NCBI RefSeq assembly: GCF_009733845.1
Contig: NZ_WNXZ01000004.1
Span: 62,001-126,000, forward strand
Source: Pseudactinotalea terrae
GTDB taxonomy: Bacteria; Actinomycetota; Actinomycetes; Actinomycetales; Beutenbergiaceae
Direction of reading: 5' to 3'
Length of the DNA stretch: 64,000 nt
The notes beneath the pieces were generated by a model. The model searched no databases, was not told where the DNA came from, and saw only the letters and a list, made by a program, of their open reading frames with translations. Below, piece by piece: positions 1 through 17,796 of the stretch. Each line of letters begins with the position of its first letter. The first letter of the stretch is position 1. The position numbers and the translations under genes were made by a program.

Positions 1-942
1 TTCCTCTCCTACTCCGCGAGCGGATACTGGACCATCTACTACGCGATCGGGTATCTGACATACACCGGTGGCGATCCGATGGACCGCACGAACTGGGTCA
101 AGAACCCCGAGCCGATCATGAGCCTGAACGACGAGGTCACCGGTACCGGTACCGGCCCCAACTTCACCGATCATGAAGGCACGGACTGGTTCGTGTTCCA
201 AGCTCGGCCAGGGCAGAACACCCAGACAGCCCGGCACGCCTTCATCGAGCCCTACACGGCTGACGCCGATGGCTTGAGCATCGGTGATGGGTCGGGGCAC
301 CCGGCGCCGCTGGCGACCGAGTACACCATGAGCGTGAACCCGATCCCACTCAGCGAGAAGATCAGCGGCTTCACGCCTGCGGACACGACGCGTCCGGAGG
401 TGGAGCTGATCTCACCGTCGACGGCCGGCCCGATGTCCGAGATCACGATCGAGGTGCAGGCCAGTGACGACGGCGGGCTGCAGCGCATCGTTGCCAACAT
501 CTACGGTCCGGACGGGCTGGTGCAGAGCACGCAGACCCCCTTCACCGGGCAGACCGGTGGCGCTCACACGGCAACGGTGACACTTCCGGACGGGCAGTAC
601 ACCATCAAGTACAACGCCCACGACCTGGCAGGCAACGTCTCGCGCACCTCGACGCTCGCCGTCGTCGTCGATACCACGGCGCCGACGGTGACGGTGAAGG
701 ACGGGCCTGGGTTCACCATCGCCTCTGGCGCCGCCTACGAGAAGGTGAGCTACAAGCTTCACGACGCGGGGAAGATCGCCAGGGCGGAGCTGAACGGGCA
801 CGTCGTCGACCTGGTCGACAACGCGTGGTCCGATCTCAACTTCATCCGCCCGGGTGTGTTCGGTGCGGTCCAGGGTGAGAACACGCTCGTGGTGTACGAC
901 GTCGCCGGCAACACGCAGACGATCACGTTCACGCTGGTCTGA
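1..942 (+). CDS. Secreted GH43-type glycosidase, C-terminal part (5' end outside window)
   Basis: The reading frame is open from base 1, so the gene starts upstream of the window and 313 residues are visible. The first ~70 residues (FLSYSASGYWTIYYAIGYL, then GGDPMDRTNWVK and GTGPNF..GTDWFVFQARPG) match the last blade of the five-bladed propeller of glycoside hydrolase family 43 (arabinanase/xylosidase group). The next ~130 residues look like a bacterial Ig-like fold (DDGGLQRIVANIYG..YTIKYNAHDLAGNVSR). A C-terminal beta-sandwich-like tail follows. The first ATG in frame (79) is internal. It probably acts outside the cell on arabinose- or xylose-containing polymers and releases sugars for the importer that follows. 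The GH43 call rests on motif resemblance, and the substrate is not determinable. Confidence 0.75.
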   Translation, partial: FLSYSASGYWTIYYAIGYLTYTGGDPMDRTNWVKNPEPIMSLNDEVTGTGTGPNFTDHEGTDWFVFQARPGQNTQTARHAFIEPYTADADGLSIGDGSGHPAPLATEYTMSVNPIPLSEKISGFTPADTTRPEVELISPSTAGPMSEITIEVQASDDGGLQRIVANIYGPDGLVQSTQTPFTGQTGGAHTATVTLPDGQYTIKYNAHDLAGNVSRTSTLAVVVDTTAPTVTVKDGPGFTIASGAAYEKVSYKLHDAGKIARAELNGHVVDLVDNAWSDLNFIRPGVFGAVQGENTLVVYDVAGNTQTITFTLV

Positions 943-949
943 TTCCACC

Positions 950-992
950 ACTGCGGCCTGTGAGTGGCACGATGCCGCTCGCAGGCCGCAGT
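950..992 (+). terminator. Long hairpin terminator after the GH43 gene
   Basis: ACTGCGGCCTG (950-960) pairs perfectly with CAGGCCGCAGT (982-992). The inner arms GAGTGGCA/TGCCGCTC (962-969/973-980) extend the stem to about 20 bp, with G-T wobbles and a 3-nt loop. There is no U-tract, as is common in actinobacterial terminators. It lies 8 bp after the stop codon. Confidence 0.75.
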
Positions 993-1039
993 CATGCTCA
1001 CAATGAGGTAACAGAAGCAAATGTAAGCACCTCCAGACA

Positions 1040-1068
1040 TTGACACAATATGAAGGCGTGGATAGTCT
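1040..1068 (+). promoter_or_regulatory. Promoter of the sugar ABC importer operon
   Basis: TTGACA at 1040-1045 is followed by a 17-bp spacer and TAGTCT (TAnnnT type) at 1063-1068, about 67 bp before the start codon. Just upstream, 1022-1039 reads TGTAAGCACCTCCAGACA. This is a weak relative (TGT-N12-ACA) of the TGTC-N10-GACA palindromes near the GntR gene, so co-regulation is possible but unproven. Confidence 0.6.
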
Positions 1069-1121
1069 GCGGAGAGCAGCACAGACAGACGCTCCCGAGT
1101 GACGGGGTGGGCTGCCCAGAC

Positions 1122-1128
1122 AAGGAGG
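1122..1128 (+). promoter_or_regulatory. Shine-Dalgarno that selects GTG 1136 as start
   Basis: AAGGAGG lies 7 nt before GTG 1136 but only 1 nt before the in-frame TTG at 1130. The GTG is therefore the likely initiator of the binding-protein gene. Confidence 0.7.
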
Positions 1129-1135
1129 TTTGACG

Positions 1136-2515
1136 GTGGTCATCAGGAATCGACAGCTGAGTCGACGAGGGCTTCTCGGAGGCGCATTCGGTCTCGCAGG
1201 AGCAGGCCTGCTCACGGCATGTGGCGACGGCGGCGGTGGTGGCAACGGCACCTCAGGCGGGAACGAGAGCGAGCCGCCTGAGGACCAGGGCTCGCCCGAG
1301 GAAGGCAAGCTCGTCGTCTGGGGCGGTGTCGCGCCCGAGGACGGTCCGCAGGCGCTTGTCGACGCCTTCACCGCGAAGTACCCCAAGATCGAGGTGGAGT
1401 ACGTCCGCTACGTCAACAACGACGAGGGCAACCTCAAGCTGGACACGGCGCTGCAGGGCGGCGTGCCGATCGACATCTTCTTCTCCTACTCGACGCCCCA
1501 CATCGTGCGGCGCTCGGGGGCCGGGCTTGCGCTGGACCTGACCGAGCTCGCGGGTCAGGACGACCTCACGAAGGAACTGGTCCAGGGCGAGCCGGTCAGT
1601 ACCAAGGTCGACGGCAAGCTCTTCTCGATCCCGACGACCTACTTCCCGAACTTCGCCGTCATCAACGAGGACGCGATCAACAAGGCCGGCATCGAGATCC
1701 CCTACGACTGGACCATCGAGGACTACCACCAGGTCGCGCTCGCGCTCAAGGGCGAGGGCTTCCACGTCGGCGCCTACAACGTGCCGCGGCACGCGGCCAC
1801 TGGTCTCGGTGGCGACTACCTGTACAAGGAGGGCGGCCTGGAGTCCAACTTCGACCACCCGCTCTTCCGGAAGCGACTCGAGGACACGCTGGCCTGGGAG
1901 GACGACGGCTCGATCCTGACCCAGGAGCAGATGACTGCCGAGGGGATGAGTGGCTACATGCAGAACCACTTCCTCGGCGGCACCTATGGCATGCAGCTCG
2001 ACGGGACGATCGCGATGCGGTACGTCAAGAACCTCGACGAGTACCCCCACGACTTCCGCACGACCTTCCGGCCGTACCCGATGCTGGGCAACGGCGAGCC
2101 GTACATCAACCCCGGCGTCCGGGGCGACGACGTGCAGATCGCGGCGAAGTCGCAGTACCAGGCGGCCGCCTGGACCTTCGTGAAGTTCTGGATCGACGAG
2201 GGTGCGCCGATCATCTCGGAGTCGGGCAAGGTGTCGCCGGCGCAGTTCGCTGCCGGCCCGGGCAATGCCGACCTGAACGCCGCACTGTTCGGACCCAACG
2301 CTGATGACCTGTTCGACGTCGAGGCCTTCGAGAAGACCTTCTACACGGACACCCCGCCGCTGTCGGTGAAGACCATCACCACCGCCTACAACGAGATCTC
2401 CAGCATCAAGTCTCAGGCCGAGGGCGAGATCCGACTGCGCACGCTGTCGATCGACGACGGCCTGGCACGGATGAAGGAAGAGGCCGACGCGGCGATCGCC
2501 AAGGCGTCGGAGTGA
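1136..2515 (+). CDS. Sugar ABC transporter substrate-binding lipoprotein (CUT1 family)
   Basis: 459 residues, the usual length for an extracellular family-1 sugar-binding protein. The N-terminus has a twin-arginine-like n-region (LSRRGLLGG), a hydrophobic stretch and the lipobox LTAC, then a Gly/Ser/Glu-rich linker. Export through Tat or Sec and anchoring to the membrane by a lipidated Cys is expected. The mature part has the typical LVVWGGVAPEDG start. The gene opens an operon with two permeases 13 bp and more downstream. No ATPase is present, as is usual for actinobacterial CUT1 systems that share an MsiK-type ATPase encoded elsewhere. The substrate is unknown; the GH43 neighbour suggests a plant-derived oligosaccharide. 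Confidence 0.9.
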   Translation: MVIRNRQLSRRGLLGGAFGLAGAGLLTACGDGGGGGNGTSGGNESEPPEDQGSPEEGKLVVWGGVAPEDGPQALVDAFTAKYPKIEVEYVRYVNNDEGNLKLDTALQGGVPIDIFFSYSTPHIVRRSGAGLALDLTELAGQDDLTKELVQGEPVSTKVDGKLFSIPTTYFPNFAVINEDAINKAGIEIPYDWTIEDYHQVALALKGEGFHVGAYNVPRHAATGLGGDYLYKEGGLESNFDHPLFRKRLEDTLAWEDDGSILTQEQMTAEGMSGYMQNHFLGGTYGMQLDGTIAMRYVKNLDEYPHDFRTTFRPYPMLGNGEPYINPGVRGDDVQIAAKSQYQAAAWTFVKFWIDEGAPIISESGKVSPAQFAAGPGNADLNAALFGPNADDLFDVEAFEKTFYTDTPPLSVKTITTAYNEISSIKSQAEGEIRLRTLSIDDGLARMKEEADAAIAKASE

Positions 2516-2528
2516 ACGGGCGCAACTC

Positions 2529-3497
2529 GTGACAGCAGTGCAAACCTCGCCCGGCCGCGCAGGAAAGCTCCTGCGCGGCCGGTCGCCGTCCGATCACCGG
2601 CCTCGGAAGAAGCTGGTCGAGGGCTACAAGTGGTGGATCCCCTGGCTCTTCCTCGTGCCGACGATCGTCTCGGTCGCCGCGTTCCTGATCGTGCCGCTCG
2701 TGGCGGGGCTGGCGATCGCCTTCGCCGGGTGGAACGTGGTCTCAGGCATCGAGGGCATCGAGTGGGTCGGGCTCGCCAACTTCCGTGAGCTCCTCCAGGA
2801 CGACATGTTCTGGGAGTCGGCCTTGCGGACGCTCTTCTACGCCGGTGTCGGGACGCCGCTGACGATCTTCGTCGGCATGCTGCTGGGGCTGGCGCTGAAT
2901 CGGCCGATGCCCTTCCGAGGACTCCTCCGAGCGATCTTCTACCTGCCGTCCCTGGCCAACATCATTGCGGCGGGCACCGTCTGGCTGACGCTGCTCAACC
3001 CGCAGTCGGGCCTCATCAACCAGGCGCTGAGGGCACTGGGGATCGACAACCCGCCGGGGTGGTTCGTCTCGCAGGACTGGGCCCTTCCGGGCATCGTGCT
3101 GATGTCGGTCTGGATCAGCGCCGGCTACGTCTCGCTGCTGGTCATCGCCGCGCTGCAGGACCTCCCGACCGAGCTCTACGAATCGGCGAAGATCGATGGT
3201 GCGGGTGCGTTCCGGCAGTTCACGACGATCACGTTCCCCGGTCTGGTCCCGATCCTCACATTCCTGCTGATCACCTCCTTCATCGGACGCTCGCAGGGCT
3301 TCGGAACCATCCAGTTCATGACGCAGGGTGGCCCGGCGGACTCCACGACCGTGCTCTCCTACTACATGTACGAGGTCGCGTTCCAGCAGTACCGATTCGG
3401 ATACTCAGCCGCGATCGCGATCATGAGCATGATCGCGGTACTCATCCTGTCCATCTTCCTGTTCAGGTTCCAGCGCGGGCGGGGGCTCTACACGTGA
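2529..3497 (+). CDS. Sugar ABC transporter permease, MalF/UgpA-like
   Basis: 322 residues with six predicted membrane segments, the first around residues 37-60 (WIPWLFLVPTIVSVAAFLIV). The cytoplasmic EAA loop is clear: ELYESAKIDGAGAFRQF..ITFPGL around residues 215-240, the contact site for the ATPase. The GTG start at 2529 is 13 bp after the binding-protein stop and has only a weak ribosome site, suggesting translational coupling. It forms the membrane channel with the next gene. Confidence 0.92.
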   Translation: MTAVQTSPGRAGKLLRGRSPSDHRPRKKLVEGYKWWIPWLFLVPTIVSVAAFLIVPLVAGLAIAFAGWNVVSGIEGIEWVGLANFRELLQDDMFWESALRTLFYAGVGTPLTIFVGMLLGLALNRPMPFRGLLRAIFYLPSLANIIAAGTVWLTLLNPQSGLINQALRALGIDNPPGWFVSQDWALPGIVLMSVWISAGYVSLLVIAALQDLPTELYESAKIDGAGAFRQFTTITFPGLVPILTFLLITSFIGRSQGFGTIQFMTQGGPADSTTVLSYYMYEVAFQQYRFGYSAAIAIMSMIAVLILSIFLFRFQRGRGLYT

Positions 3498-3507
3498 GGG
3501 GCGGGCG

Positions 3508-4386
3508 ATGACTGCATCGACCGAGTTGATGGCGCCGCGCGCGGGCTACCTGCGGCGCAAGCGCAAGGAGCGTCTCGTCTGGCTGCTGCGCGGGCTGGTG
3601 ATGTCGCTGCTGGCGATCGTCTTCCTCGTCCCGTTCCTGTGGATGATCTCGTCCTCACTGAAGCAGAACCTCGACATCTTCGAGCTCCCGCTTCGGTGGA
3701 TCCCGGATCCGGTCGAGTGGCGCAACTACATCCAGGTCTGGACCGGCGAGCGGTCGATGCTGAGGTACTTCGGCAACTCGACGATCGTCGTGGTCGCCAC
3801 GATCGTCGGCGAGCTGGCCGTGGTGTCTCTCGCCGGGTACGCGTTCGGGCGGCTGCGGTTCAAGGGGCAGAACGCCTTGTTCCTGGTGTTCCTCGCCACG
3901 TCGATGGTGCCGGCCCAGCTGCTGCTGGTGCCGCGGTTCATGTTCTTCCAGCAGATCGGTCTGTACGACACGCTCTGGGCCCTGATCCTGCCGGGTCTCT
4001 CGTCTGTGTTCGCGACGTTCCTGCTGCGGCAGCACTTCGCCTCGGCGCCACGCGAGCTGGGTGAGGCGGCTCGGATCGACGGCGCGGGGGAGTGGCGCAT
4101 CTTCGCTCGCATCTACCTGCCGCTGGCACGACCGGCGCTGGCGGCGCTCGCGATTCTCATCTTCGACTCGACCTGGAACGACTTCGAGGGCCCGCTGATC
4201 ATGATCAGCTCGGAGGAGAAGTACACGGTCCCGCTCGGGCTGACGCGCTTCATGTCGGATGACGGGACGGTCTCGATGGGTCCCGCGATGGCCGGCTCGG
4301 TCTCCTCCATCATCCCGGTGCTGATCATCTTCATCGTCTTCCAGCGTCATTTCATGTCGTCGATGGCACGGGTCGGACTGAGGTAG
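3508..4386 (+). CDS. Sugar ABC transporter permease, MalG/UgpE-like
   Basis: 292 residues with six membrane segments. The first is around residues 28-50 (GLVMSLLAIVFLVPFLWMIS). The EAA loop is ELGEAARIDGAGEWRIFARI followed by YLPLARPAL. ATG at 3508 is preceded by GAGGGGCGGGCG. It is the second half of the heterodimeric channel. The next gene begins 4 bp after its stop, so epimerase-like and barrel-protein genes belong to the same transcript. Confidence 0.92.
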   Translation: MTASTELMAPRAGYLRRKRKERLVWLLRGLVMSLLAIVFLVPFLWMISSSLKQNLDIFELPLRWIPDPVEWRNYIQVWTGERSMLRYFGNSTIVVVATIVGELAVVSLAGYAFGRLRFKGQNALFLVFLATSMVPAQLLLVPRFMFFQQIGLYDTLWALILPGLSSVFATFLLRQHFASAPRELGEAARIDGAGEWRIFARIYLPLARPALAALAILIFDSTWNDFEGPLIMISSEEKYTVPLGLTRFMSDDGTVSMGPAMAGSVSSIIPVLIIFIVFQRHFMSSMARVGLR

Positions 4387-4390
4387 GTCG

Positions 4391-5371
4391 TTGAACAACG
4401 TCACGCACGAGGACATCACGGTCTCGGGCTGGTCTGCCGTCAGGCTGTCGAACGAGCAGCTCGAGGTGACGGTCGTACCCGGCAAGGGCGCCGACATCAC
4501 CTCGATGATCGACCGGGCCACGGGCACCGAGCTGATGTGGAGAACCCGGTGGGGACTGCGACCACCGGGAGCGATGGCACCGCCGGCCTCGCCCGAGGCG
4601 GAGGCGCTCGACCGCTCGGGCGGTGGCTGGCACACCCTGTTCCCCAACGCGGGCCGTGCCTGCGTGGAGCAGGGTGTCGAGTGGGGGTTCCACGGCGAGG
4701 CCTGGCTCGCGCCGTTCGAGCACGAGCGCACCGATGACGGCCTGCGACTGACCACAACGCTGGCCCGCAGCCCCTTCACTGTCGTGAAAGACATCGTGCT
4801 CGACGGCGACCGGGTGAGCGTCACCGAGACGGTCACCCAGATCGGGGCTCACCCGGTCGATGTGATGTGGTGGCAGCACCCCACCTTCGGGGCGCCGCTC
4901 ATCGGACCGGAGACGACGGTCAGCATCACCGACTGCCTGGTTCATCCGGACATGCCCGATGACGTCCCGGACACGGCACCGCCGCCGCGCTGGCCCGAGC
5001 ACCGGCCGCCCGGCGGTGAACCGGTCGACCTGTCCCGGCTCACCGCGGCAGGCGAGGGTGGCAGCCGGCTGGCGTTCCTCGGAGAGTTCGAGGCCGAGCA
5101 GGTCCGCGCCGAGATCCGCAACCCGGCGCTGGGACTGGGTGTCGACGTCGAGTGGTCGGTCGACGACTTCCCCTATGGCTGCTACTGGTACGAGGCCGGA
5201 GGGCGGCTCGGGTACCCCTGGTACGGGGCTGCGCACGGCTTCTCGATCGAACCGGCCACCGGCTACCCGAGCGGCTTGGCACGCGCGCGTGCTCTGACTG
5301 GCACCGAGCTCACGATCGAGCCCGGCGAGACGAAGAGAAAGACGGTATCGGTACGTGTCCACCACGACTGA
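4391..5371 (+). CDS. Aldose 1-epimerase-like / DUF4432-type protein
   Basis: 326 residues. The pattern VVPGKGADITSMIDRATGTELMW near the N-terminus, the NAGRACVEQGVEWGFHGEA segment around residue 80-95 and WWQHPTFGAP around residue 158 resemble the galactose-mutarotase-like beta-sandwich superfamily. Family members interconvert sugar anomers or bind sugars. The start is TTG 4391, immediately after the permease stop, with AGGTAGG upstream. It probably acts in the cytoplasm on the imported sugar. Exact family and substrate are uncertain. Confidence 0.65.
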   Translation: MNNVTHEDITVSGWSAVRLSNEQLEVTVVPGKGADITSMIDRATGTELMWRTRWGLRPPGAMAPPASPEAEALDRSGGGWHTLFPNAGRACVEQGVEWGFHGEAWLAPFEHERTDDGLRLTTTLARSPFTVVKDIVLDGDRVSVTETVTQIGAHPVDVMWWQHPTFGAPLIGPETTVSITDCLVHPDMPDDVPDTAPPPRWPEHRPPGGEPVDLSRLTAAGEGGSRLAFLGEFEAEQVRAEIRNPALGLGVDVEWSVDDFPYGCYWYEAGGRLGYPWYGAAHGFSIEPATGYPSGLARARALTGTELTIEPGETKRKTVSVRVHHD

Positions 5372-7550
5372 GCAGGCCACACCAGCACGGGTGTCCACGC
5401 GTGTGCTGCGCAACGACGACGGCACCCTCGGGCTGAGCCTGACGTCGCACCACGGTGCGGCGGCCGAGCAGACAACGCCGCTTCGCCTGAGCGTGTGGAA
5501 CGGCGAGGCGGGCACCGATCCCGTCACGGTGACCGGCGGGTACGACTCGCTCCGCGGTACCGGAGGAGAGTGGGTCGGCACCGGCCGGCTCGAGAGCGGC
5601 CGGGGTACGGCGGTGCAGTTCACGGACCGCTGGAGCATCGATCAGGACACGGTGCGGCTGCGCCGCGAGGCGCGCGTGCATGGCGACGCCCCGGGCGGCT
5701 TCACGAGCGTGGCAGCACTGCGGCTCGTGGACGCCCAGCCGTGGCCGCAGATGGAGTGGTTCTCGCCCGGAACCCTCTACGGCGGCTTCGACCACCTGCG
5801 TGACAACTCCTTCGGCGCCGCGAACTACTACGTGCCGGGCGACTACACGATGTGGATCCGTGAGGACCGGTTGGCCGCCCCACTGCTGGCGACGCGGTTG
5901 CCCGACGGCCCGTCGTTCGCCGTTCTGAGCTCGGCACCGGACAGCCGGACGAACGCGGAAGAGGGCCAGAGCTTCTCGCGCGAGCCGATGGTCGGCGAGG
6001 CGTTCACGTTCGGCTCGATCCTCGCTGAGGAGCGGCCGGACGGCACGATGCTCGGCTACGCCGTGCCGGGCTCGGAAGGCACCCTGAGCTACGGCCCGAA
6101 GGGCGGCGGCGAGCACGGCGCCAGCGCGGAGCAGCAGTGGCGGCACCGCTACAACCCGCTCACGGACGGCTTCACCCAGCGCTACGAGGTGACGTTCCGG
6201 TTCGGCCATGCGGAAGGTACGAGCGAGCTGATCACCGACTCGTGGCGCTGGGCCTGGCGCACCCTGGACCCTCGCCCGAACCCCCAGGACATCGAGACGA
6301 TGCGTTCGAGCATCGTCGATGTGCTGGCGGAGAACTTCCTCGAGGTCGAGGACCGCGCCGGCGTGCAGTTCGTCCGCGCGGCGGTGCCTGGCGGGCGGCA
6401 GCTGCCCGACTCGAAGGTCATCCTCGGGTTCACCGGCTACGCGCTCGGCTCCGCTGAGATGATGCTGGTCGAGGCCGCTCGCGATCCCGAGTCGGAGCGC
6501 AGCCAGGCGCTGGTGGAGAAGGCCGAGAAGTCGATCGAGGCATTCCTGCGCCGGCCCGTGGACCCACCGCTGGACGAGGGTTTCATGCTGGGCTCCGGTG
6601 CTCCCCAGGTCTCGACGTGGCCGACCGGTCGTGAGGTCACGACGGAGCAGGTGATCTTCCTGCGCAGCTTCACCGACGACATGAAGTCGCTGCTGCGTGC
6701 CTACGAGCGCGAGGAGCGAGCGGGTCGGGAGCGATCCAGCTGGCTCGCCTGGGTGCGCACGTTCGCTGACTGGTTGCTGACCCAGGAGCAGCCCGGTGGT
6801 GGCTTCCCGCGCGCCTGGGAGGCGTTGACGGGCAAGCTGAAGGCAGCTTCGACGACGGGCACGTACAACGCCGTGCCGTTCTATGCCCAGCTCTACCGGA
6901 TCACCGGGGAGGAGACCTACCGGGACGCCGCGCTTCGTTCAGGTGAGTTCGGCTGGGAGTCCGGCGGACATGGCCGCGGCCGGTTCACCGGTGGCACGAT
7001 CGACAACCCCGACGTGCTGGACAAGGAAGCCGCCACGATCGCGCTCGAGGGTTACCTCGCGCTGCACGCGATGACGCAGGATGGGGTGTGGCTCGAGCGA
7101 GCTCGCCTCGCCGCGGACGTGGCCGAGACCTGGATGTACATCTGGGACGTCCCGATGCCCGACGACGCCGACGACGAGCAGCTGCACTGGAAGCACGGTG
7201 CCTCGACCGTCGGGATCCAGCTGATCGCCACGGGGCACTCGCTGAACGATGCGTACATGGCGTGGGATGTCGAGAGCTACGCCAGGCTGGCGCGTGAGAC
7301 CGGTGACGACCACTACCTCGAGGTGGCGCGGATCCTGCTGCACAACACCAAGGCGATGGTTGGCACGCCCGATGATCACCGTGGCACGCGCGGGCCCGGC
7401 TGGCAGCAGGAGCACTACTGCTTCACCCTTCCCCGTGGGATCGGGCGGCACCGCGAATGGCTGCCGTGGGTCCCGGTCAGCCACTTGCGCGGCATCAACG
7501 ACCTGATCGACCTCGACCCGGAGCTCTACGCGGACCTCGCCGGGCTCTGA
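5355..7550 (+). CDS. 731-aa putative (alpha/alpha)6-barrel carbohydrate-active protein
   Basis: The GTG start at 5355 overlaps the previous gene by 17 bp. There is no signal peptide, so it is probably cytoplasmic. Residues ~1-320 look like a beta-rich domain. Residues ~330-731 are helical with repeated hairpin patterns (WLAWVRTFADWLLTQEQPGG; TYNAVPFYAQLYRITGEETY; AYMAWDVESYARLARETGDD) like six-hairpin glycosidases and unsaturated glycuronyl hydrolases. I do not recognise the exact family. Position in the importer operon suggests hydrolysis or other processing of the imported oligosaccharide. Length is about twice that of simple six-hairpin hydrolases because of the N-terminal domain. Confidence 0.6.
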   Translation: MSTTTEQATPARVSTRVLRNDDGTLGLSLTSHHGAAAEQTTPLRLSVWNGEAGTDPVTVTGGYDSLRGTGGEWVGTGRLESGRGTAVQFTDRWSIDQDTVRLRREARVHGDAPGGFTSVAALRLVDAQPWPQMEWFSPGTLYGGFDHLRDNSFGAANYYVPGDYTMWIREDRLAAPLLATRLPDGPSFAVLSSAPDSRTNAEEGQSFSREPMVGEAFTFGSILAEERPDGTMLGYAVPGSEGTLSYGPKGGGEHGASAEQQWRHRYNPLTDGFTQRYEVTFRFGHAEGTSELITDSWRWAWRTLDPRPNPQDIETMRSSIVDVLAENFLEVEDRAGVQFVRAAVPGGRQLPDSKVILGFTGYALGSAEMMLVEAARDPESERSQALVEKAEKSIEAFLRRPVDPPLDEGFMLGSGAPQVSTWPTGREVTTEQVIFLRSFTDDMKSLLRAYEREERAGRERSSWLAWVRTFADWLLTQEQPGGGFPRAWEALTGKLKAASTTGTYNAVPFYAQLYRITGEETYRDAALRSGEFGWESGGHGRGRFTGGTIDNPDVLDKEAATIALEGYLALHAMTQDGVWLERARLAADVAETWMYIWDVPMPDDADDEQLHWKHGASTVGIQLIATGHSLNDAYMAWDVESYARLARETGDDHYLEVARILLHNTKAMVGTPDDHRGTRGPGWQQEHYCFTLPRGIGRHREWLPWVPVSHLRGINDLIDLDPELYADLAGL

Positions 7551-7560
7551 CGGCCCGAGC

Positions 7561-7633: not shown

Positions 7634-7649
7634 GGCCGTGGTGTGGCGA

Positions 7650-9325: not shown

Positions 9326-9329
9326 CGCT

Positions 9330-10610
9330 CTAGGCCTCGGTACCGAGCACCGCGTCGATGCTGGCCTGATAGGCGCTGACCGAACCGTTGAGCACGTCCT
9401 CGACCGACACGATCGTGCCGCCGGCCGCCCCGGACTCCATCATCGCGTAGCAGAGCGCGATGGCCCGCATGCCCTCCTCGAGGCCGACCTCGGGCTTGCT
9501 CCGCGTGTTGATCGCGCTGCCGAACTCGGCGTACTCGACGGCCAGGAGCAGCCGGTCGACGGTCTCGAAGTCGAGCCCGTACGCGGCCGCTCGCGGGCCA
9601 CCGAACAGGGCGGCGGTCGCGTCGTCGAGCTCGTAGTCGGGCACGAGCGGAAGAATCTCGGTTCCCGTGTAGGTCCGTGTGCGGTCGAGCGTCAGCACGA
9701 GCGCCTGGCCGCTGCGGTCCTTGGGGATCTCGACGGCGCCCGCTGAGCCGTGCACGCTGCGCGCCCAGCTGTCTCGGCCGTGCTCGGCGCGGTTCTCCGC
9801 GTACTGGCCGATCGCCCCCGAGGCGAAGTTCACCATGGCGTAGAGGGCGTCCTCGGCGGTGGCCTCGAACTCCGCAGGCATCCCGGCCTGCGACTGCCCG
9901 TAGACACCGCTCGGGTTCGATGCCGGTGCGCCGCCTGTGGCCGCGGGGTTGTAGCGGATCTTCTCGAACAGCCGCATCTGCGCGTAGACGCTCTCGACCG
10001 GTCCGAGGTAGTACTCCATCATGTCGGTGTAGTGCGTTCCTGCGTCGAACAGGATGCCGCTCTCGTTCTTCATGTGGCGCCACACCGAGATCGCCATCAG
10101 GTTGCCACCGCCACCTGAGCTCTGGTGGAAGTAGCGCGGCTCACCGAGCACACCGCCGTCGATCAGAGCCTTCACGAGCCGGTTCATCGGGTCCCGGCGG
10201 AAGTTCTCGGCCACGCTCAGGATGCGGTCGGAGCCGTCGATCGCCTGGGCGAGCTGCTGGCCGGCAGCGATCGTGAGCCCGACCGGCTTCTCGACCATCA
10301 CGTCGAGCCCGAGGCCGATCGCCTCGGCTGCGAGGCTGTGGTGGAACTGCGGCACCGTGGTGATGTCGACGGCGGCGGCGCCGAGCCGCTGCGCCTCGGC
10401 GAGGTCCGTGCCGGGCGTGGGTCGGCGGCCGAGGCGGCGCTCCGCCTCATCGGCCAGGCGCTCGGCACGCTCGGGGTCGACATCGCAGACGGCCACCAGG
10501 TCGAACGGGTTCAGCCCCGCTCGCTCGAGCTCGGCAAGACCGAACAGATGGCGGGTCCCCATTCCTCCGCAACCGATGATCGCGACAGGAATCCGCTGCA
10601 TGCTCTGCAC
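9330..10610 (-). CDS. Gfo/Idh/MocA-family oxidoreductase
   Basis: 426 residues. The N-terminal Rossmann domain starts PVAIIGCGGMGTRHLFGLAE, and the EKP motif (MVEKPVGLT) that holds the nicotinamide is near residue 110. The C-terminal alpha/beta substrate domain contains DAGTHYTDMMEYYLG. The family oxidises or reduces sugars and cyclitols, and some members are NAD-dependent glycosidases. It is the first gene of a three-gene leftward operon whose promoter carries a palindrome at 10735-10752. Confidence 0.88.
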   Translation of the reverse strand: MQSMQRIPVAIIGCGGMGTRHLFGLAELERAGLNPFDLVAVCDVDPERAERLADEAERRLGRRPTPGTDLAEAQRLGAAAVDITTVPQFHHSLAAEAIGLGLDVMVEKPVGLTIAAGQQLAQAIDGSDRILSVAENFRRDPMNRLVKALIDGGVLGEPRYFHQSSGGGGNLMAISVWRHMKNESGILFDAGTHYTDMMEYYLGPVESVYAQMRLFEKIRYNPAATGGAPASNPSGVYGQSQAGMPAEFEATAEDALYAMVNFASGAIGQYAENRAEHGRDSWARSVHGSAGAVEIPKDRSGQALVLTLDRTRTYTGTEILPLVPDYELDDATAALFGGPRAAAYGLDFETVDRLLLAVEYAEFGSAINTRSKPEVGLEEGMRAIALCYAMMESGAAGGTIVSVEDVLNGSVSAYQASIDAVLGTEA

Positions 10611-10715
10611 CCTTCAGACGTGGTTCGGCTCCGCGGCCGATGGCATGCCGTACGCGACCTCGCGAGACGCCGACGTCAGGAGGCGGCGTCTCGCCCGGGT
10701 GCGCCGACGACGTCG

Positions 10716-10745
10716 AGCCTAGATGGCCACAGGTAAATATGTCAA
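10716..10745 (-). promoter_or_regulatory. Promoter of the Gfo-MBL-SDR operon
   Basis: On the minus strand TTGACA (10745-10740) is followed by an 18-bp spacer and TAGGCT (10721-10716), about 105 bp upstream of the Gfo start codon. The -35 box lies inside the palindrome 10735-10752, which fits repression by the adjacent GntR regulator. Confidence 0.6.
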
Positions 10746-10752
10746 CACATTT
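10735..10752. promoter_or_regulatory. Palindromic operator candidate (GntR)
   Basis: AAATATGTCAACACATTT is an 18-bp dyad (AAAT-R-TGT-YR-ACA-Y-ATTT) that includes a TGTCA half-site shared with 11550-11567. It covers the -35 box of the leftward operon. Confidence 0.55.
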
Positions 10753-10774
10753 GCACCCCGGCCACAGGCGGGTC

Positions 10775-11521
10775 TCAGCTCTCCTCGAGCACGAGGTCGA
10801 TCGTGTACCCGTCCGAGCGGTAGGCGTGCTCGGCATGCTCGACCGGTGCCCCGCTGGGATCGAAGGCGGTCCGCGTCACGGCGATGACCGGGAGTCGACT
10901 CGAGATCTCGAGCAGCTTCTGCTCCTCTCCGGTCGGCAGTCGGGCGGCCACGGACTGGTGGGCGACCACCGAACCGACGCCTTGGTCGCGCAGCATGGAG
11001 TAGAGCCCCCGCTTCTCGAGCTGCTCCTGCGAGATTCGGCTGTGTCGCGGCGGAAGCCAGTTCTGCATGAGGGCGAGCGGCTCGCCGTCGGCACGGCGAA
11101 GGCGCTTGATCGCCAGCAGCTCTGTGTCGGGATCGAGGTCGAGCGCGGTCGCCGCCCGGGCGTTGATCTCGATCTCGTGCCGCAGCACCGAGGTGCTCGG
11201 GTGGCGGCCCTGGACCTCGAGATCCTCGTACAGGCTGCCCTTGCTCACGCGGCGGTGGACTCGGCGACTGGCCACGAACGTCCCGAGGCCACGCCTGCGC
11301 ACGAGGAGCCCCTGGTCGACGAGGTGATGGATGGCGCGCCGCACAGTGGGGCGTGAGAGCCCCAGTCGCTCGCTCATCGCGACCTCGTTCTCGAACGGGT
11401 CGCCAGGCTGCGCACTCCCGTCGGAGATCGCCGTCGTCAGCTGTTCGGCAAGCTGGAAGTACAAGGGCACCGGGGAGGCGCGGTCGAGCGCCACCGGAAC
11501 CACTGCTTCAGGTGCGGCCAT
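10775..11521 (-). CDS. GntR-family regulator with UTRA domain
   Basis: 248 residues. A winged helix-turn-helix sits at residues ~25-90 (MSERLGLSRPTVRRAIHHLV, then RRRGLGTFVA), followed by a UTRA ligand-binding domain of HutC/FarR type. Such proteins repress sugar catabolic operons until a phosphorylated or free sugar binds. The gene lies between a leftward and a rightward catabolic operon. It has a palindrome in its own upstream region and is separated from the Gfo gene by 164 bp, so it probably controls both operons and itself. Confidence 0.9.
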   Translation of the reverse strand: MAAPEAVVPVALDRASPVPLYFQLAEQLTTAISDGSAQPGDPFENEVAMSERLGLSRPTVRRAIHHLVDQGLLVRRRGLGTFVASRRVHRRVSKGSLYEDLEVQGRHPSTSVLRHEIEINARAATALDLDPDTELLAIKRLRRADGEPLALMQNWLPPRHSRISQEQLEKRGLYSMLRDQGVGSVVAHQSVAARLPTGEEQKLLEISSRLPVIAVTRTAFDPSGAPVEHAEHAYRSDGYTIDLVLEES

Positions 11522-11549
11522 GTGGTGCCCCCTCCTCGCCGCGGCAACA

Positions 11550-11567
11550 TGTCATATCAACGTGACA
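11550..11567. promoter_or_regulatory. GntR operator candidate, autoregulatory side
   Basis: TGTCATATCAACGTGACA is an 18-bp dyad with perfect 5-bp arms (TGTCA/TGACA), 28 bp upstream of the GntR start codon. Confidence 0.6.
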
Positions 11568-11669
11568 ATAGCCCGCACACCCCCGTCTCGTCACGAGGTC
11601 GGCGTCCATGCGAGTGGATCTGGTGCGTCCGGACGCCTGTAGCATGGCTATCTGGAGTTAATGGGCTGC

Positions 11670-11710
11670 TGTCTATACATAGTGACATATTGGCAAAGAA
11701 GCGCTACTGT
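11670..11710 (+). promoter_or_regulatory. Operator and promoter of the rightward catabolic operon
   Basis: TGTCTATACATAGTGACA (11670-11687) has the same length and TGTC-N10-GACA architecture as 11550-11567. Its right arm includes a -35-like GTGACA (11682-11687). A 17-bp spacer leads to TACTGT (11705-11710), a TAnnnT -10 box. A repressor bound here would cover the -35 box. Confidence 0.6.
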
Positions 11711-11742
11711 CGGGATGTGAACTACTTCAGCAAGGGGGGATC

Positions 11743-12606
11743 GTGACGGCGCGACCATTGGCCTTCTTGGCGTTCGACCACCGGGAGCGAGCCTTCGGCT
11801 CGGTGCGGCCCGGCGGCATGAACCACGAGCAGATCCAGGACTCCAAGAGGCTGATCTACGAGGCGTTCGGCCGCGCCGTCGACCTCGGGCTCGGCGACGT
11901 CCGACCGGGAATCCTCGTCGACGAGCAGTTCGGCGCGGGGATCGCGCAGCGGGCCATCGCTGACGGCGTGCTCGTCGCGATGCCGGTCGAGCGCGCCAAC
12001 GAGCAGGTGTTCACCTTCGAGTACGGCGCGGACTACCAGGAGCACCTGCTGCAGTTCCGGCCGAGCTGCGCGAAAGTCCTCATCCAGCACCGCACGACCG
12101 ACCCGGCCGATGACAAGCTGACCCAGCTCACCCGGTTGCGCGAGCTCTCGGAGTTCCTGGCCGCTCAGTCGATCGACTTCATGTGCGAGCTGATCGTGGG
12201 GATGGGCGAGGAGAGCCTCGACGGCGTCCCCAGCGTCGATGTCGATGCGCTCTGCGCCTCCATGGCTGAGATCCAAGCCGCTGGCGTGCTCGTGACGATG
12301 TGGAAGGTCGAGGGGGTCGCCTCCCGCGAGGGTGCCGAGCGCATCGCAGCCCAGGCGGCGGCGAGCGACCACCCGGCGACCTGCATGGTGCTCGGTGCCG
12401 GCGCAGCGCCCAGCACGGTGGAGCACTGGTTGGCTGTCGCTGCCGGCACGCCTGGCTACATCGGGTTCGCCGTCGGCCGAAGCTTCTGGGGCGAGGCCGT
12501 CTCCGCCTGGCTCGATGGCAGACTCTCCCGCGAGGATGCGATCGAGTCGATCGCCTCGATCTACCGAGCCTGCACACTGCGGTACATGGGAGCCGATGTC
12601 CGGTGA
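11743..12606 (+). CDS. DUF2090/IolC-C-terminal-like aldolase
   Basis: 287 residues. The opening LAFLAFDHRE is the active-site strand of LacD/FbaB-like class I aldolases and of the C-terminal half of IolC, which cleaves 2-deoxy-5-keto-gluconate 6-phosphate. PGILVDEQFGAGIA, KVLIQHRTTDPADD and MCELIVG fit TIM-barrel strands. The GTG start 11743 follows AAGGGGGG. It is the first gene of a five-gene operon with overlapping ends. It probably performs the final C-C cleavage of the pathway. No dedicated sugar kinase is seen in the cluster, so the phosphorylation step is unexplained. Confidence 0.72.
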   Translation: MTARPLAFLAFDHRERAFGSVRPGGMNHEQIQDSKRLIYEAFGRAVDLGLGDVRPGILVDEQFGAGIAQRAIADGVLVAMPVERANEQVFTFEYGADYQEHLLQFRPSCAKVLIQHRTTDPADDKLTQLTRLRELSEFLAAQSIDFMCELIVGMGEESLDGVPSVDVDALCASMAEIQAAGVLVTMWKVEGVASREGAERIAAQAAASDHPATCMVLGAGAAPSTVEHWLAVAAGTPGYIGFAVGRSFWGEAVSAWLDGRLSREDAIESIASIYRACTLRYMGADVR

Positions 12607-13610
12607 TGGACGCTGTTCGCAAGACTGGACCTCATCCTGACGACCTTGCGCTGCAGCAGGTGCCACGGCCGAGCGCTGAGGCCGGCCAGGTCCTCGTCGC
12701 CGTCGCGGCCTCGGGCATCTGCGGCACCGACCTGCACATCATCGACGGCAGCTACGGCTCCCGCCCACCCGTGACCCTGGGGCACGAGGTCAGCGGCACG
12801 ATCGCTGCGGTGGGAGAGGGCGTCGACCCGGCCCGCATCGGTGAGCGTGTGGCGCTCGAGACCTTCTACTCGACGTGCGGTCAGTGCCGCGGCTGCCGGG
12901 GTGGATCGCCCAACCGCTGCCAGCAGCGGATCTCGATCGGATCCGGTGTCGACGGCGGATTCGCCGCCGAGGTTGTGGTGCCGAGCCGCAACGCCCGTGT
13001 GCTGCCCGAGGGCGTCTCGCTGGTGGCCGGCGCGCTCAGCGAGCCGCTGGCGTGCGTGTGCCGCTCGCTGTTCCAGCCCTTCCCCGCGGTCACGCCCGGG
13101 GACCACGTGCTCGTCATCGGACCCGGCGCGATCGGGCTGCTCGCCGCGCAGGTCGCCCGCACGGCCGGGGGCGTCGTCACCGTGCTCGGTACGCCCGCCG
13201 ACAGCGAGCGACTCGCCGTCGCCCATCAGCTCGGCCTGACGGCGACCGACGACGCGGCGGCCGTGCCGTCAGAGGTCGACGTCGTGCTCGAGTGCTCAGG
13301 CTCAGGCCCGGGCATGGCGCTCGGCATCGAACGGGTTCGCCGCGGCGGCCGCTACGTGCAGATCGGTCAGCGCGGTGACGCCGTCCCGGTCAACCTCGCG
13401 CTCGTCTCGTTCCACGAGCTGGTCATCACCGGTGGCTTCGCCAGCACCCCGGACTCCTGGGACCGAGCGATGCAGCTGCTTCACGACGGCGTCATCGAGC
13501 TCGAGCCCCTCGTCAGCCATCGGTTCCCGCTGGCCGAGTGGGAGGCCGCGTTCGACGCCGTCCGCAGCAGCGCCGGTGTCAAGCAGATGCTGGTCCCGGA
13601 GGAGATCTGA
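12606..13610 (+). CDS. Zinc-dependent alcohol/sugar dehydrogenase (MDR family)
   Basis: 334 residues from ATG 12606, which overlaps the aldolase stop (TGATG). GTG 12603 in the same frame is an alternative. Motifs are GICGTDLH (catalytic-zinc Cys), GHEVSG, and CGQCRGCRGGSPNRC, the four-Cys structural zinc lobe. VLVIGPGAIG is the Rossmann turn. It resembles threonine/sorbitol dehydrogenases, which oxidise a secondary hydroxyl with NAD(P). Operon position suggests oxidation of a sugar or sugar acid intermediate. Confidence 0.88.
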   Translation: MDAVRKTGPHPDDLALQQVPRPSAEAGQVLVAVAASGICGTDLHIIDGSYGSRPPVTLGHEVSGTIAAVGEGVDPARIGERVALETFYSTCGQCRGCRGGSPNRCQQRISIGSGVDGGFAAEVVVPSRNARVLPEGVSLVAGALSEPLACVCRSLFQPFPAVTPGDHVLVIGPGAIGLLAAQVARTAGGVVTVLGTPADSERLAVAHQLGLTATDDAAAVPSEVDVVLECSGSGPGMALGIERVRRGGRYVQIGQRGDAVPVNLALVSFHELVITGGFASTPDSWDRAMQLLHDGVIELEPLVSHRFPLAEWEAAFDAVRSSAGVKQMLVPEEI

Positions 13611-14506
13611 TGCGACTCGGCTACAACACCTGGTCGACGCCGAACCTCTCGTTCGCCGATGCCACCGCACACCTGGCGCGGATCGGCTATGACAGCATCG
13701 AGGTGACGGTCTGCGAGGACTGGCCCACCGATGCCATGCTCGCCTCGGACGAGGAAGCCCGCAGATGGCGACAGGACGCCGTCGAGAACGGCCTGGAGAT
13801 CTCCAGCGTCACCGCGAACGCGCCGCTCGTCTGTGACGACGACATCTGGGCGACCAGCCGTCGCCGCCTCGCGCGCTCCTTCGAGGTCGCCGGGATCCTC
13901 GGGAACGGCAGCGCCCTCCCGGTGAGCCTGGGCGCCCACAAGCCGAAGGGCAAGCTGCTCGGCGGCAGCCCGCCGCCGATCACCGCCCAGACCAGCTGGG
14001 AAGCCGACCGGCAGCAGATCATCGACCGTTTCGGTGAGCTGGTCGAGCTCGCCACGGCGGCCGGCTGCTCGGTGGCCCTCGAGCCGCATGCCGGAGCCGT
14101 CGTCTCGATGCCGGAGCAGGCGCTCGCGGTGCTCGACGCCGTCGGTTCGCCCGCCCTCGGCATCAACCTCGACATCTCCCACTTCGCGGTGCGCGACTTC
14201 GACCTCGCGGAGGTGGTGGCGGCGCTGCTGCCCCGCTCCGTCGTCGTCGAGGTGAAGGACCATCGCCGCACCGAGAGCGGGTTCGACTTCCTGACCCCGG
14301 GCGAGGGCGAGTTCGACTACCCAGCCTTCCTCGGCCTGCTCGCGGCAGGTGGCTACACGGGCACCGTGTCGGTCGAGATCAGCGTCCGCCGTCAGGCGCT
14401 CCCGGACTTCGACGAGGTCGAGGCGGCCGAGCTGTCCTACCGCACCCTCGCGGCGGCCTGCGAGCAGGCCGGCGTGGTCCGCCCCGTGCGTCAGGTGCAG
14501 GCATGA
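13610..14506 (+). CDS. Sugar phosphate isomerase/epimerase-type TIM-barrel protein
   Basis: 298 residues from ATG 13610, which shares one base with the preceding stop. This is the AP-endonuclease-2 / xylose-isomerase-like barrel. Metal ligands are visible in VALEPHAG (Glu), GINLDISHF (Asp, His), VVVEVKDHR and TVSVEIS (Glu). Members isomerise or epimerise ketoses. Some act on 3-keto-sugars in elimination/hydration steps alongside Gfo/Idh/MocA partners, such as the next gene. Substrate unknown. Confidence 0.85.
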   Translation: MRLGYNTWSTPNLSFADATAHLARIGYDSIEVTVCEDWPTDAMLASDEEARRWRQDAVENGLEISSVTANAPLVCDDDIWATSRRRLARSFEVAGILGNGSALPVSLGAHKPKGKLLGGSPPPITAQTSWEADRQQIIDRFGELVELATAAGCSVALEPHAGAVVSMPEQALAVLDAVGSPALGINLDISHFAVRDFDLAEVVAALLPRSVVVEVKDHRRTESGFDFLTPGEGEFDYPAFLGLLAAGGYTGTVSVEISVRRQALPDFDEVEAAELSYRTLAAACEQAGVVRPVRQVQA

Positions 14507-15636
14507 CGGCGGATCTGCGGGTCGGGGTGATCGGGCTCGGGAAGTTCGGCACCTTCCACGCCGAGGCCGCCGCGGCGCTGCCCGGCGTGCAGGTCGCGGC
14601 CCTCTGCTCGCGCACGCTCGATCGTGCGCAGGCGCTCGCCGACCGCTTCCCCGGGGCGGTGGCCTACGACAACGTCGCCACGATGCTCGCCCAGGCGAAC
14701 CTGGACGCCGTGCTGATCGCCACACCCCACAAGCAGCACTTCGAGCCGGCCATGCAGGCGATCCGCGCCGGCGTCGCCGCGCTCGTGGAGAAGCCGCTGA
14801 CCACCTCGCTCGCCGAGGCGAACGAGCTCGTCGTGGCAGCCGAGGAGGCAGGAGTCGCGCTCGGCACGGTCTTCCAGCGGCGCTACTTCCCCGCCGCGAT
14901 CCGCATGCGCGAGGCGATCGAGCGGGGCCGGCTCGGGCGCGTGGCGGCCGCCGAGCTCGTCGCGCTCCTCGGCCGTGACCGCGCCTATTACGAGCAGGAC
15001 GACTGGCGTGGGTCCTGGGCCGGTGAGGGCGGCGGTGTGCTGCTCACGATGGCGGTTCACTACATCGACATGCTCAACTGGCTGCTCGGCACGCCCACCT
15101 CCGTGTACGGCCGCTGGGACACGCTGAAGCACGGCGACTACATCGACGTCGAGGACGTGGCAGGCGCCGTCGTCACCTATTCCAGCGGCGCGATCGCCAC
15201 CATCCAGGCGATGACGACGTTCGAGAACGGGTTCGCCTCGCAGCCGAGCACCACCACGCAGCACCGGGCCCCCGGGTTCCGGCTGGCGGTGCACGGCACC
15301 GCCGGGCACAGCGTCGGTCTCGACGAGAGCCCTGAGCTCGCGCAGGCGGTCACCGACCTGTGGACGTTCGACGGCGAGGAAGACCGCCTCGCGCAGTGGC
15401 GCGAGGCCGAGTCCGGGCGCCCGAGCGTGCCCGAGTTCCATGGCCGCCAGATCGCGGAGTTCCTCGACGCCGTCCGCGAAGGGCGGCAGCCCGCGATCAC
15501 CGGTCGCGACGGGCTCAACGCCATCGAGGTGATCAAGGGCGTCTACCTGTCGCAGGAGCGCAAGCAGCCGATCGCACTGCCGATGTCGGATGCCGACCGG
15601 CGGGCCGCCGACGAGCTGACGGAACGTGGAGCATGA
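14503..15636 (+). CDS. Gfo/Idh/MocA-family oxidoreductase
   Basis: 377 residues. The Rossmann motif is VGVIGLGKFGTFHAEAAA and the EKP motif is VEKPLTTS at residues ~90-97. The substrate domain contains GGGVLLTMAVHYIDMLNWLL, where His-x2-Asp is the usual catalytic pair. The start overlaps the isomerase by 4 bp (ATGA). It is distinct in sequence from the Gfo protein at 9330-10610, so the two operons contribute two different redox steps or a coupled oxidation/reduction pair. Confidence 0.88.
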   Translation: MTADLRVGVIGLGKFGTFHAEAAAALPGVQVAALCSRTLDRAQALADRFPGAVAYDNVATMLAQANLDAVLIATPHKQHFEPAMQAIRAGVAALVEKPLTTSLAEANELVVAAEEAGVALGTVFQRRYFPAAIRMREAIERGRLGRVAAAELVALLGRDRAYYEQDDWRGSWAGEGGGVLLTMAVHYIDMLNWLLGTPTSVYGRWDTLKHGDYIDVEDVAGAVVTYSSGAIATIQAMTTFENGFASQPSTTTQHRAPGFRLAVHGTAGHSVGLDESPELAQAVTDLWTFDGEEDRLAQWREAESGRPSVPEFHGRQIAEFLDAVREGRQPAITGRDGLNAIEVIKGVYLSQERKQPIALPMSDADRRAADELTERGA

Positions 15637-16391
15637 GCACGGTCGCCGTCGTCACGGGCGGAGCCACCGGCATCGGGCGTGCCACCTGCCTGCAGCTCGC
15701 ACGCCGCGGCGTGCAGCAGATTCACGTCGGCTACTCACGCTCAGCCGCTGCGGCCGAGGAGCTGTGCCGCGAGCTGGAGGCACTCGGTGCCCAGGGCCAC
15801 CCGCTTCAGATCGAGGTCTCGGACCGTGACGCCGTGCAGCGCGCAGCCGCACAGGTGGTCGAGGCGAGCGGTGGCGTGGACGTGCTGGTCAACAGCGCCG
15901 GCACCACGCAGAAGATCGACTTCACGGATCTCGACGCCCTCACACCGCAGGTCTGGGAGGAGATCCTCGGCGTCAACCTCCTCGGCGCGTTCTGGGTCTG
16001 CCAGGCGTTCGCTGCCTCGCTCAAGGAGCGCGGCGGCGCCATCGTCAACGTCACCTCGATCTCGGGCACGCGCGTGGTGGGCAGCTCGATCCCGTACACC
16101 GTGTCCAAGGCCGGGCTGGCGCAGCTGACGCGCGCTCTCGCGGTCTCGCTCGCACCCGAGGTGCGGGTGAACGCCGTCGCGCCCGGGACCGTGATCTCCG
16201 GTTGGCACGAGCGGCTGATCGGGGCCGAGGCTGCCCGCAGCAACTTCGACGCCGAGGCCGACCTCGTCCCCCTCGGTCGGCTTGCCGGGGCCGAGGAGAT
16301 CGGCGAGGCGATCGCCACCTTGGCCCTCGACCTCCCCTTCGTCACGGGCCAGGAAGTGATCGTCGACGGCGGGAAGTCGCTGCGCTATTGA
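15633..16391 (+). CDS. Short-chain dehydrogenase/reductase (SDR)
   Basis: 252 residues from ATG 15633, overlapping the previous gene by 4 bp. Motifs are VVTGGATGIGRATC at the N-terminus, LVNSAGTT, VTSISG with catalytic Ser, PYTVSKAG (Tyr-x3-Lys) and GQEVIVDGGKSL at the C-terminus. It is the last gene of the aldolase operon and is followed by a clear hairpin terminator. Probably an NAD(P)-dependent sugar or sugar-acid dehydrogenase. Confidence 0.88.
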   Translation: MSTVAVVTGGATGIGRATCLQLARRGVQQIHVGYSRSAAAAEELCRELEALGAQGHPLQIEVSDRDAVQRAAAQVVEASGGVDVLVNSAGTTQKIDFTDLDALTPQVWEEILGVNLLGAFWVCQAFAASLKERGGAIVNVTSISGTRVVGSSIPYTVSKAGLAQLTRALAVSLAPEVRVNAVAPGTVISGWHERLIGAEAARSNFDAEADLVPLGRLAGAEEIGEAIATLALDLPFVTGQEVIVDGGKSLRY

Positions 16392-17686: not shown

Positions 17687-17764
17687 GGGCCACACGTTAC
17701 GGGTCGCGAGTGCGACGGCACGGAGCGCTCCTTGTGCCGGCCGTGCTCACCAACTACGGTAGGC

Positions 17765-17780: not shown

Positions 17781-17796
17781 ATCAATCGGAGGGCAG

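Follow-up and report, generated by a model that had tools for sequence, protein, structure and literature searches.

Several described routes for sugars and cyclitols share features with the gene cluster reported here. The inositol route of Thermotoga, which Rodionova et al. are said to have described in 2013, reportedly uses IolG, IolM, IolN and IolO, with two NAD oxidations, a hydrolase and a TIM-barrel epimerase. The E. coli ycjNOPQRS system leads from D-guloside to D-glucoside, and its ycjQRS genes are annotated as D-guloside 3-dehydrogenase, 4-epimerase and D-glucoside 3-dehydrogenase (see also PMC11543891). According to an excerpt of PMC12632266, the L-glucose/L-galactose pathway of Luteolibacter (lguABCDEF) oxidises its substrate to an aldonate and then to a 5-keto-aldonate with an IolO-type epimerase, and ends with altronate dehydratase, KDG kinase and KDPG aldolase. 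For the lower part of inositol catabolism, the sections of Price et al. (PMC9007349) used here propose that DUF2090 proteins are 2-deoxy-5-keto-gluconate-6-phosphate aldolases, in which the LacD residues Lys126 and Glu164 are conserved. We compared these systems with a locus of Pseudactinotalea terrae that lies in a stretch of 64,000 nucleotides ("the window"), positions 62001-126000 of contig C10 in a genome of 4.76 Mb.

A sugar-type cluster of oxidoreductive enzymes occupies the first 16.4 kb of the window and includes a GntR regulator of its own. This conserved catabolic cluster is real and probably forms one regulon. Drawing on its gene families, the conserved gene set, the kinase and IolA genes of its relatives and the separate iol operon of the genome, we incline with modest confidence to the explanation that the regulon serves a glycoside or cyclitol, and that a new upper route converges on an inositol-type endgame via 2-deoxy-5-keto-gluconate (DKG) or a stereoisomer. 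The plus strand carries genes from the GH43-like protein to the barrel protein, the minus strand GntR, GfoA, MBL and SDR1, and the plus strand again those from the DUF2090 aldolase to SDR2:

1..942, plus strand: GH43-like protein, C-terminal part, with Ig-like domain (GH43 25.6 and 22.3 bits on two halves, below the 32.2 cut-off)
1029..1051, minus strand: operator-like site upstream of the SBP gene (24.4 bits, relatives-only model)
1130..2515, plus strand: extracellular solute-binding protein (SBP), SBP_bac_1 (PF01547 71.5 bits)
2529..3497, plus strand: CUT1-type sugar permease 1 (PF00528 67 bits)
3508..4386, plus strand: CUT1-type sugar permease 2 (PF00528 70.3 bits)
4391..5371, plus strand: DUF4432, aldose-epimerase (mutarotase)-like protein (PF14486 64.5 bits)
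5355..7550, plus strand: barrel protein, 731 aa, GH127/GH76-like by weak matches under both Pfam cut-offs
7650..8438, minus strand: SDR1 (PF13561 192.8 bits)
8435..9325, minus strand: MBL-fold hydrolase, candidate lactonase or ring hydrolase (PF00753 76.9 bits; HxHxD)
9330..10610, minus strand: GfoA (best PDB sequence matches 6a3f and 5ya8)
10734..10756, plus strand: operator-like site between GntR and GfoA (30.2 bits)
10775..11521, minus strand: GntR/UTRA regulator (PF07702 110.2 bits)
11544..11566, plus strand: operator-like site upstream of GntR (22.4 bits)
11671..11693, minus strand: operator-like site ahead of the aldolase gene (21.2 bits; not part of any training set)
11743..12606, plus strand: stand-alone DUF2090 class I aldolase, IolC-like (PF09863 106.4 bits; Lys111/Glu149)
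12603..13610, plus strand: Zn-dependent alcohol dehydrogenase (ADH), Tdh/IolM-like (L-threonine dehydrogenase models 187 and 181 bits, IolM NF041097 171 bits, all far below cut-off)
13610..14506, plus strand: TIM-barrel keto-sugar epimerase/isomerase-type protein (PF01261 118.5 bits)
14503..15636, plus strand: GfoB, IolG-like (PF01408 102.4 bits; TIGR04380 142 bits, cut-off 355)
15633..16391, plus strand: SDR2, last gene of the cluster in the window (PF13561 165 bits)

A sequence-only reading of this stretch had listed an importer, epimerase-like and barrel proteins, two Gfo enzymes, two SDRs, a Zn-ADH, an MBL hydrolase, a TIM barrel and an IolC-like aldolase. Each of these genes has an open reading frame and a family match, and the comparison of gene neighbourhoods that it had called for bears out its view of a unit with its own GntR. 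The cluster occurs in seven distinct genomes, the window's own included, the other six coming from two actinobacterial families; Occultella glacieicola and G302 were counted once, given identical match places in the kinase, IolA and IolD searches. Ten of 296 genomes of the class, again with the window's own, have an aldolase match at E<=1e-10. Among 396 genomes of the order the MBL protein has matches at E<=1e-20 in four, namely its own and the same-family genomes G302, G394 and G492. A scan of named genomes with the aldolase, in which 80 loci are listed of 500 confirmed, gave Occultella glacieicola (Ruaniaceae; L032) at 63% identity, the others among the matches listed reaching 35-42%. The three relatives from outside the family, G075, G154 and G174, all belong to one genus, and the MBL search in the family of G154 matched these same three out of 22 genomes. 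Their aldolase orthologues are 63-65% identical to that of the window, and their clusters keep the gene order without the barrel. Identities to the window are highest in SDR1 (88-89%) and GfoA (84-85%), followed by GntR (80-81%), MBL (79-81%), the ADH, TIM, GfoB and SDR2 proteins (76-81%), the importer (71-78%) and DUF4432 (67-68%).

From the SBP gene to SDR2 the order is identical in all seven clusters, apart from the barrel, added kinase and IolA genes, and a GH43-like stretch that stands between barrel and SDR1 in G394. A GH43 gene precedes the SBP gene on the same strand in six of the seven; the single GH43 gene of G394 faces away from it. The barrel is confined to the window's own family (4/7 clusters). 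Upstream of GH43 in G174 lies a segment (L136:518-1168) with 30% identity to the C-terminal part of the barrel, the clusters of that genus being otherwise without a barrel. The distribution is patchy, neither of two other same-genus genomes searched having an MBL match. The recurring gene set is more than a chance neighbourhood and constitutes one conserved unit. Literature searches returned nothing on it, and no close characterised homologous cluster with a known substrate was found in them, in agreement with the sequence-only reading.

Our comparison reveals two lower-pathway genes in relatives that are missing from the window. All six relatives carry a PfkB-type (IolC-type) kinase gene between GntR and the aldolase, which scores 263-287 bits against TIGR04382, the model for IolC with a cut-off of 300. 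The corresponding gap in the window measures 221 bp and has no kinase match at E<=10. Because every relative with the cluster has the kinase in it, the absence is a local loss, specific to the window's genome, and the earlier statement that no sugar kinase takes part describes this copy and fails for the pathway. The cluster genes gave no dehydratase family match. Right after SDR2, on the same strand, the three same-family relatives carry a gene for an IolA-type semialdehyde dehydrogenase of the coenzyme A-acylating kind (665-693 bits, cut-off 448.5; gap to SDR2 about 50-130 bp), and none follows SDR2 in the three other relatives or in the window. In the myo-inositol pathway the lower half consists of kinase, DUF2090 aldolase and IolA, and therefore the relatives point to an inositol-type endgame.

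All seven genomes also encode IolD above its cut-off elsewhere, with IolC above cut-off at most 4 kb away. In the window's genome this iol operon lies on contig C11, where IolC (373 bits), IolB (245), IolD (869), an IolA-type protein (685) and IolG (366) all exceed their cut-offs and an IolE-like protein reaches 168 bits (cut-off 290). The kinase and dehydrogenase that the cluster lacks could come from this operon, in trans. Directly after its IolC gene stands a Cgl0159-family protein (387 bits; L030:12064-12942), perhaps the aldolase of that operon; besides the cluster aldolase no other DUF2090 protein was found in the genome. That the window's copy is instead a decaying remnant, which ceased to support growth once kinase and dehydrogenase were lost, is very unlikely in our view. 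The gap without any kinase trace would suit such decay, as would the lack of MBL matches in the two same-genus genomes, but the remaining genes are open and keep the motifs that we take to be expected of their families (HxHxD in MBL, YxxxK in the SDRs, EKP in the Gfo proteins, the ADH cysteines, Lys111/Glu149 in the aldolase), and the orthologous positions still carry operator-like sites.

The window's aldolase has the invariant Lys111 and Glu149 at a spacing of 38, as in LacD Lys126/Glu164. With 106 bits to DUF2090 and these residues, it belongs to the proposed DKG 6-phosphate aldolase family, an assignment to family level in a family that occurs outside iol contexts too. In a tree of 28 sequences the seven cluster aldolases form one group (94/97). 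A different region in G210, a class member of 1.5 Mb, may represent another way of entering the inositol endgame (L020, L126): it combines an ADH 44% like that of the window, SDRs, an SMP-30 lactonase, a DUF2090 protein (29%) and a CUT1-type importer, and the same contig carries an IolC-type kinase (354 bits) and a weak DUF4432 match (19 bits, cut-off 32.5). G210 has no IolD at E<=1e-100, and its IolA-type gene sits next to an SDR where a different contig ends. In further actinobacterial sugar clusters (L015-L019, L021) DUF2090 is paired with ADHs and importers, and some of them add an aldehyde dehydrogenase or an FGGY-type kinase.

From this gene content we infer every substrate and reaction of the proposed pathway, including the DKG-type intermediate, the supply in trans and the order of the upper steps. 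A secreted GH43 protein would trim the substrate outside the cell and the CUT1 importer would take it up, whereupon the barrel protein and DUF4432 may release and mutarotate it. GfoA/GfoB, the ADH, SDR1/SDR2, the TIM epimerase and the MBL hydrolase would then lead to DKG or a stereoisomer. An IolC-type kinase would phosphorylate this intermediate, the DUF2090 aldolase would split the product into dihydroxyacetone phosphate and malonate semialdehyde, and an IolA-type dehydrogenase would yield acetyl-CoA, kinase and IolA presumably being provided by the C11 operon in the window's genome. A deoxy-cyclitol, a 2-deoxy-aldose entering via its lactone and an inositol-type glycoside all fit as substrates. 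Carbon bookkeeping suggests that DKG could arise without a dehydratase, either by hydrolytic opening of a deoxy-inositol 1,3-diketone or by C5 oxidation of a 2-deoxy-aldonate, both compatible with the gene set. A more specific version, which we put forward tentatively and regard as unlikely, starts from a quercitol-like deoxy-cyclitol: two NAD-dependent oxidations would give a ring 1,3-diketone, the MBL protein would open the ring by hydrolysis, and DKG would form in one step provided that the cut lies beside a CH2 of the ring. On this view, drawn from gene content and carbon bookkeeping, IolE, IolD and IolB would be bypassed with direct entry into the inositol endgame, and Thermotoga-type chemistry would have been recruited for a deoxy-inositol.

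The inositol-type endgame is also favoured by the regulator: of 41 candidates scored in the genome, a single one is a paralogue of the cluster GntR at E<=1e-10, namely the GntR next to iolC on C11 (43% identity). Intergenic blocks conserved among the relatives mostly share the core TGTCAA, and the operator model was trained on 16 sites of relatives, picked by eye, none of them from the window's genome. Across the 64 kb window it gave four sites (30.2, 24.4, 22.4 and 21.2 bits), all inside the cluster, compared with a maximum of 18.4 in 20 simulated windows; the best site in the 60 kb to the left has 14.0 bits and lies just upstream of the GH43 start. Since sites at orthologous places help themselves, each promoter class was held out in turn. 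The GfoA site was still found with its class held out, at 19.5 bits versus a maximum of 17.8 in 20 simulations. The aldolase site surpassed all simulations in three of four models, scoring 23.8, 19.5 and 14.9 bits in the three hold-out models (simulation maxima 14.3, 19.3 and 17.8). SBP sites outside the training set reach 23.7 bits in G394 and 16.5 in G492. In the gap between GntR and IolC on C11 a weak site reaches 11.2 bits with one model and 7.6 with another, both inside the noise range.

A number of observations weigh against our preferred explanation. With their own promoter classes held out, the SBP site drops to 11.3 bits and the GntR site falls outside the top seven, so that both fail the hold-out; the aldolase site is strong in two of seven genomes (the window and Occultella, 21.2 bits) and stays at 8.9-12.3 bits, within noise, in the five other relatives. 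Co-regulation of the two halves, on which the sequence-only reading depended, hence finds partial support in the window, from the GfoA and aldolase sites, and co-regulation of the importer is suggested by synteny together with a conserved block. As to the endgame, the window's aldolase shares 35-42% identity with each of 12 stand-alone DUF2090 proteins versus 26% with the sole IolC-fused protein in the comparison, from Halomonas, and the tree places the cluster clade near that fused protein with weak support and long branches, not a firm position. Some stand-alone DUF2090 members adjoin the pentose-phosphate genes for transaldolase, transketolase and 6-phosphogluconate dehydrogenase, in Tistlia (L101, by eye) and on a Polaromonas plasmid (L122, annotated), and a non-inositol role within the family is likely. 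All six cluster kinases score under the IolC cut-off and their substrate may therefore differ, as a stereoisomer or another 5-keto-aldonate. IolA belongs to the cluster in three of seven cases only, the window's copy is without both lower enzymes and would depend on the supposed supply in trans, and no cluster gene is a proven 2-deoxygenating dehydratase.

The front end of the cluster looks separable from the rest. The GH43-like frame is cut by the window edge and starts about 3.5 kb upstream of it (L022:16509), with an N-terminus that, judged by eye, suggests secretion; the same GH43 domain in G075 matches the PDB GH43 arabinofuranosidase 3akf at 2e-18. The barrel protein stays below the Pfam gathering scores of GH127 (23.9 of 24.9 bits) and GH76 (24.2 of 25.9 bits), and its predicted model is unusable (mean pLDDT, predicted local distance difference test, of 39). 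A search of 396 sampled genomes of the phylum returned the barrel in its own genome only, and a plasmid search gave one match, on a plasmid of Deinococcus aetherius (44.6%). Barrel, DUF4432 and importer recur together on that plasmid, which is why they resemble a detachable module. The Deinococcus cluster (L121, 18805-33041) comprises DUF4432, the barrel homologue, an importer, an FGGY kinase, an SDR, an FAD oxidoreductase, a phosphotriesterase-family protein, a KDPG aldolase and an SIS isomerase, with no DUF2090 or IolC-type gene annotated, and to our knowledge it matches no named sugar route. Plasmid searches with MBL (E<=1e-20), TIM (1e-15) and GfoA (1e-40) gave no match.

Among the candidate upper-step enzymes, GfoA is closest in PDB sequences to 6a3f, which we take to be levoglucosan dehydrogenase, and to the scyllo-inositol/L-glucose dehydrogenase 5ya8. 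The relatives of the MBL protein are generic hydrolases only. A predicted model of the TIM protein, derived from two sequences (pLDDT 77), matched 2zds, ketose 3-epimerases, UlaE and YcjR in Foldseek, with keto-glucal hydratase and IolE (rank 41) further down and identities of 14-22% throughout. These matches bear on the idea of a parallel inositol pathway with unrelated middle enzymes, in which Gfo oxidation would be followed by the TIM protein as dehydratase, MBL in place of IolD and DUF4432 in place of IolB, acting on an inositol isomer or glycoside. A candidate can be proposed for every iol step, GfoA matches 5ya8, and the GntR is paralogous to the regulator beside iolC; on the other hand, IolD is already present in all seven genomes, the TIM model finds epimerases ahead of IolE, and on the Deinococcus plasmid DUF4432 adjoins the barrel homologue in a cluster devoid of annotated DUF2090/IolC-type genes. 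We consider this pathway decidedly unlikely.

A hydrolysed cyclic intermediate, lactone or ring diketone, appears likely, because the G210 region has a lactonase-type enzyme of a fold unrelated to MBL. The lactone-based route that had been suggested from the sequence is plausible on account of these two enzymes, which belong to different clusters, and the elimination step suggested alongside it gained no support of its own. Lactone chemistry also underlies another alternative, in which a normal aldose is oxidised to a lactone by GfoA, hydrolysed by MBL, oxidised at C5 by the ADH or SDR1, phosphorylated and cleaved to dihydroxyacetone phosphate and tartronate semialdehyde, with no 2-deoxy intermediate. 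The want of a dehydratase match, lactonase candidates of two unrelated folds, the 170 bits of SDR1 to the gluconate 5-dehydrogenase model (cut-off 279) and cluster kinases below the IolC cut-off are all compatible with it. It is nevertheless unlikely, as no tartronate-semialdehyde reductase family match exists among the cluster genes and an IolA-type dehydrogenase ends the operon in three of seven clusters.

Downstream of the cluster, at 17710-21071 of the window, family matches identify a ZnuA-family protein and an ABC ATPase, followed on the opposite strand, by eye, by a permease and a DtxR/MntR-like regulator. Contig C10 carries 13 of the 33 Gfo/Idh/MocA matches of the whole genome.

If the inositol-type endgame is true, the lower inositol enzymes would serve as a common junction for routes from other sugars or cyclitols, and a genome whose iol operon provides these enzymes could dispense with a second copy. 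The explanation offers testable functions for DUF4432, the stand-alone DUF2090 aldolase, the MBL hydrolase and the orphan barrel protein. Moreover, the kinase shows how a gene lost from a single genome can lead the interpretation of a pathway astray as long as its relatives are left out of the comparison.

None of the named pathways accommodates the cluster. The top NCBIfam model of GfoA is levoglucosan dehydrogenase (NF052479), at 91 bits versus a cut-off of 650, and this identity was rejected. The Thermotoga route resembles the cluster in the idea of two oxidations, a hydrolase and a TIM epimerase, and the ADH is related to IolM; however, the ADH is far below the IolM cut-off (171 of 450 bits, NF041097), kinase and aldolase follow in the relatives of this cluster, and the IolN model NF041098 has no match in the genome. 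With E. coli ycjNOPQRS the cluster shares the order ADH-TIM-Gfo and an SBP with two permeases; GfoB is 25% identical to YcjS (3e-22) and the TIM protein 23% to YcjR (4e-8). However, BLAST of the ADH gave nothing for YcjQ at E<=0.1, leaving the ycjQRS module incomplete, and the better match to YcjS, at 34%, is a different Gfo protein of C10 that lies outside the cluster (L023). The E. coli system has phosphorylases, the present cluster kinase (in the relatives), aldolase and MBL. As far as the excerpt of the Luteolibacter paper goes, lguABCDEF is similar in aldonate oxidation, a 5-keto-aldonate and an IolO-type epimerase; its altronate dehydratase, KDG kinase and KDPG aldolase have no family match in the cluster, and it was set aside.

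The closest likeness concerns the iol pathway. The canonical operon is ruled out as the identity of the cluster, because the genome has one on C11; among the cluster genes IolD, IolB and IolE have no family match except for the TIM protein (29 bits to IolE, cut-off 290). The cluster aldolase is unfused to a kinase and distant from the fused protein compared, an IolC-type kinase is absent from the window cluster and below cut-off in the six of seven clusters that have one, and the window copy also lacks IolA. The sequence-only claim that no inositol pathway matches gives way for the lower half, where the kinase type, the DUF2090 aldolase family and, in three of them, the IolA-type dehydrogenase in the relatives' clusters are those of the iol pathway. 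By its endgame, the cluster is probably a new variant of inositol-type catabolism.

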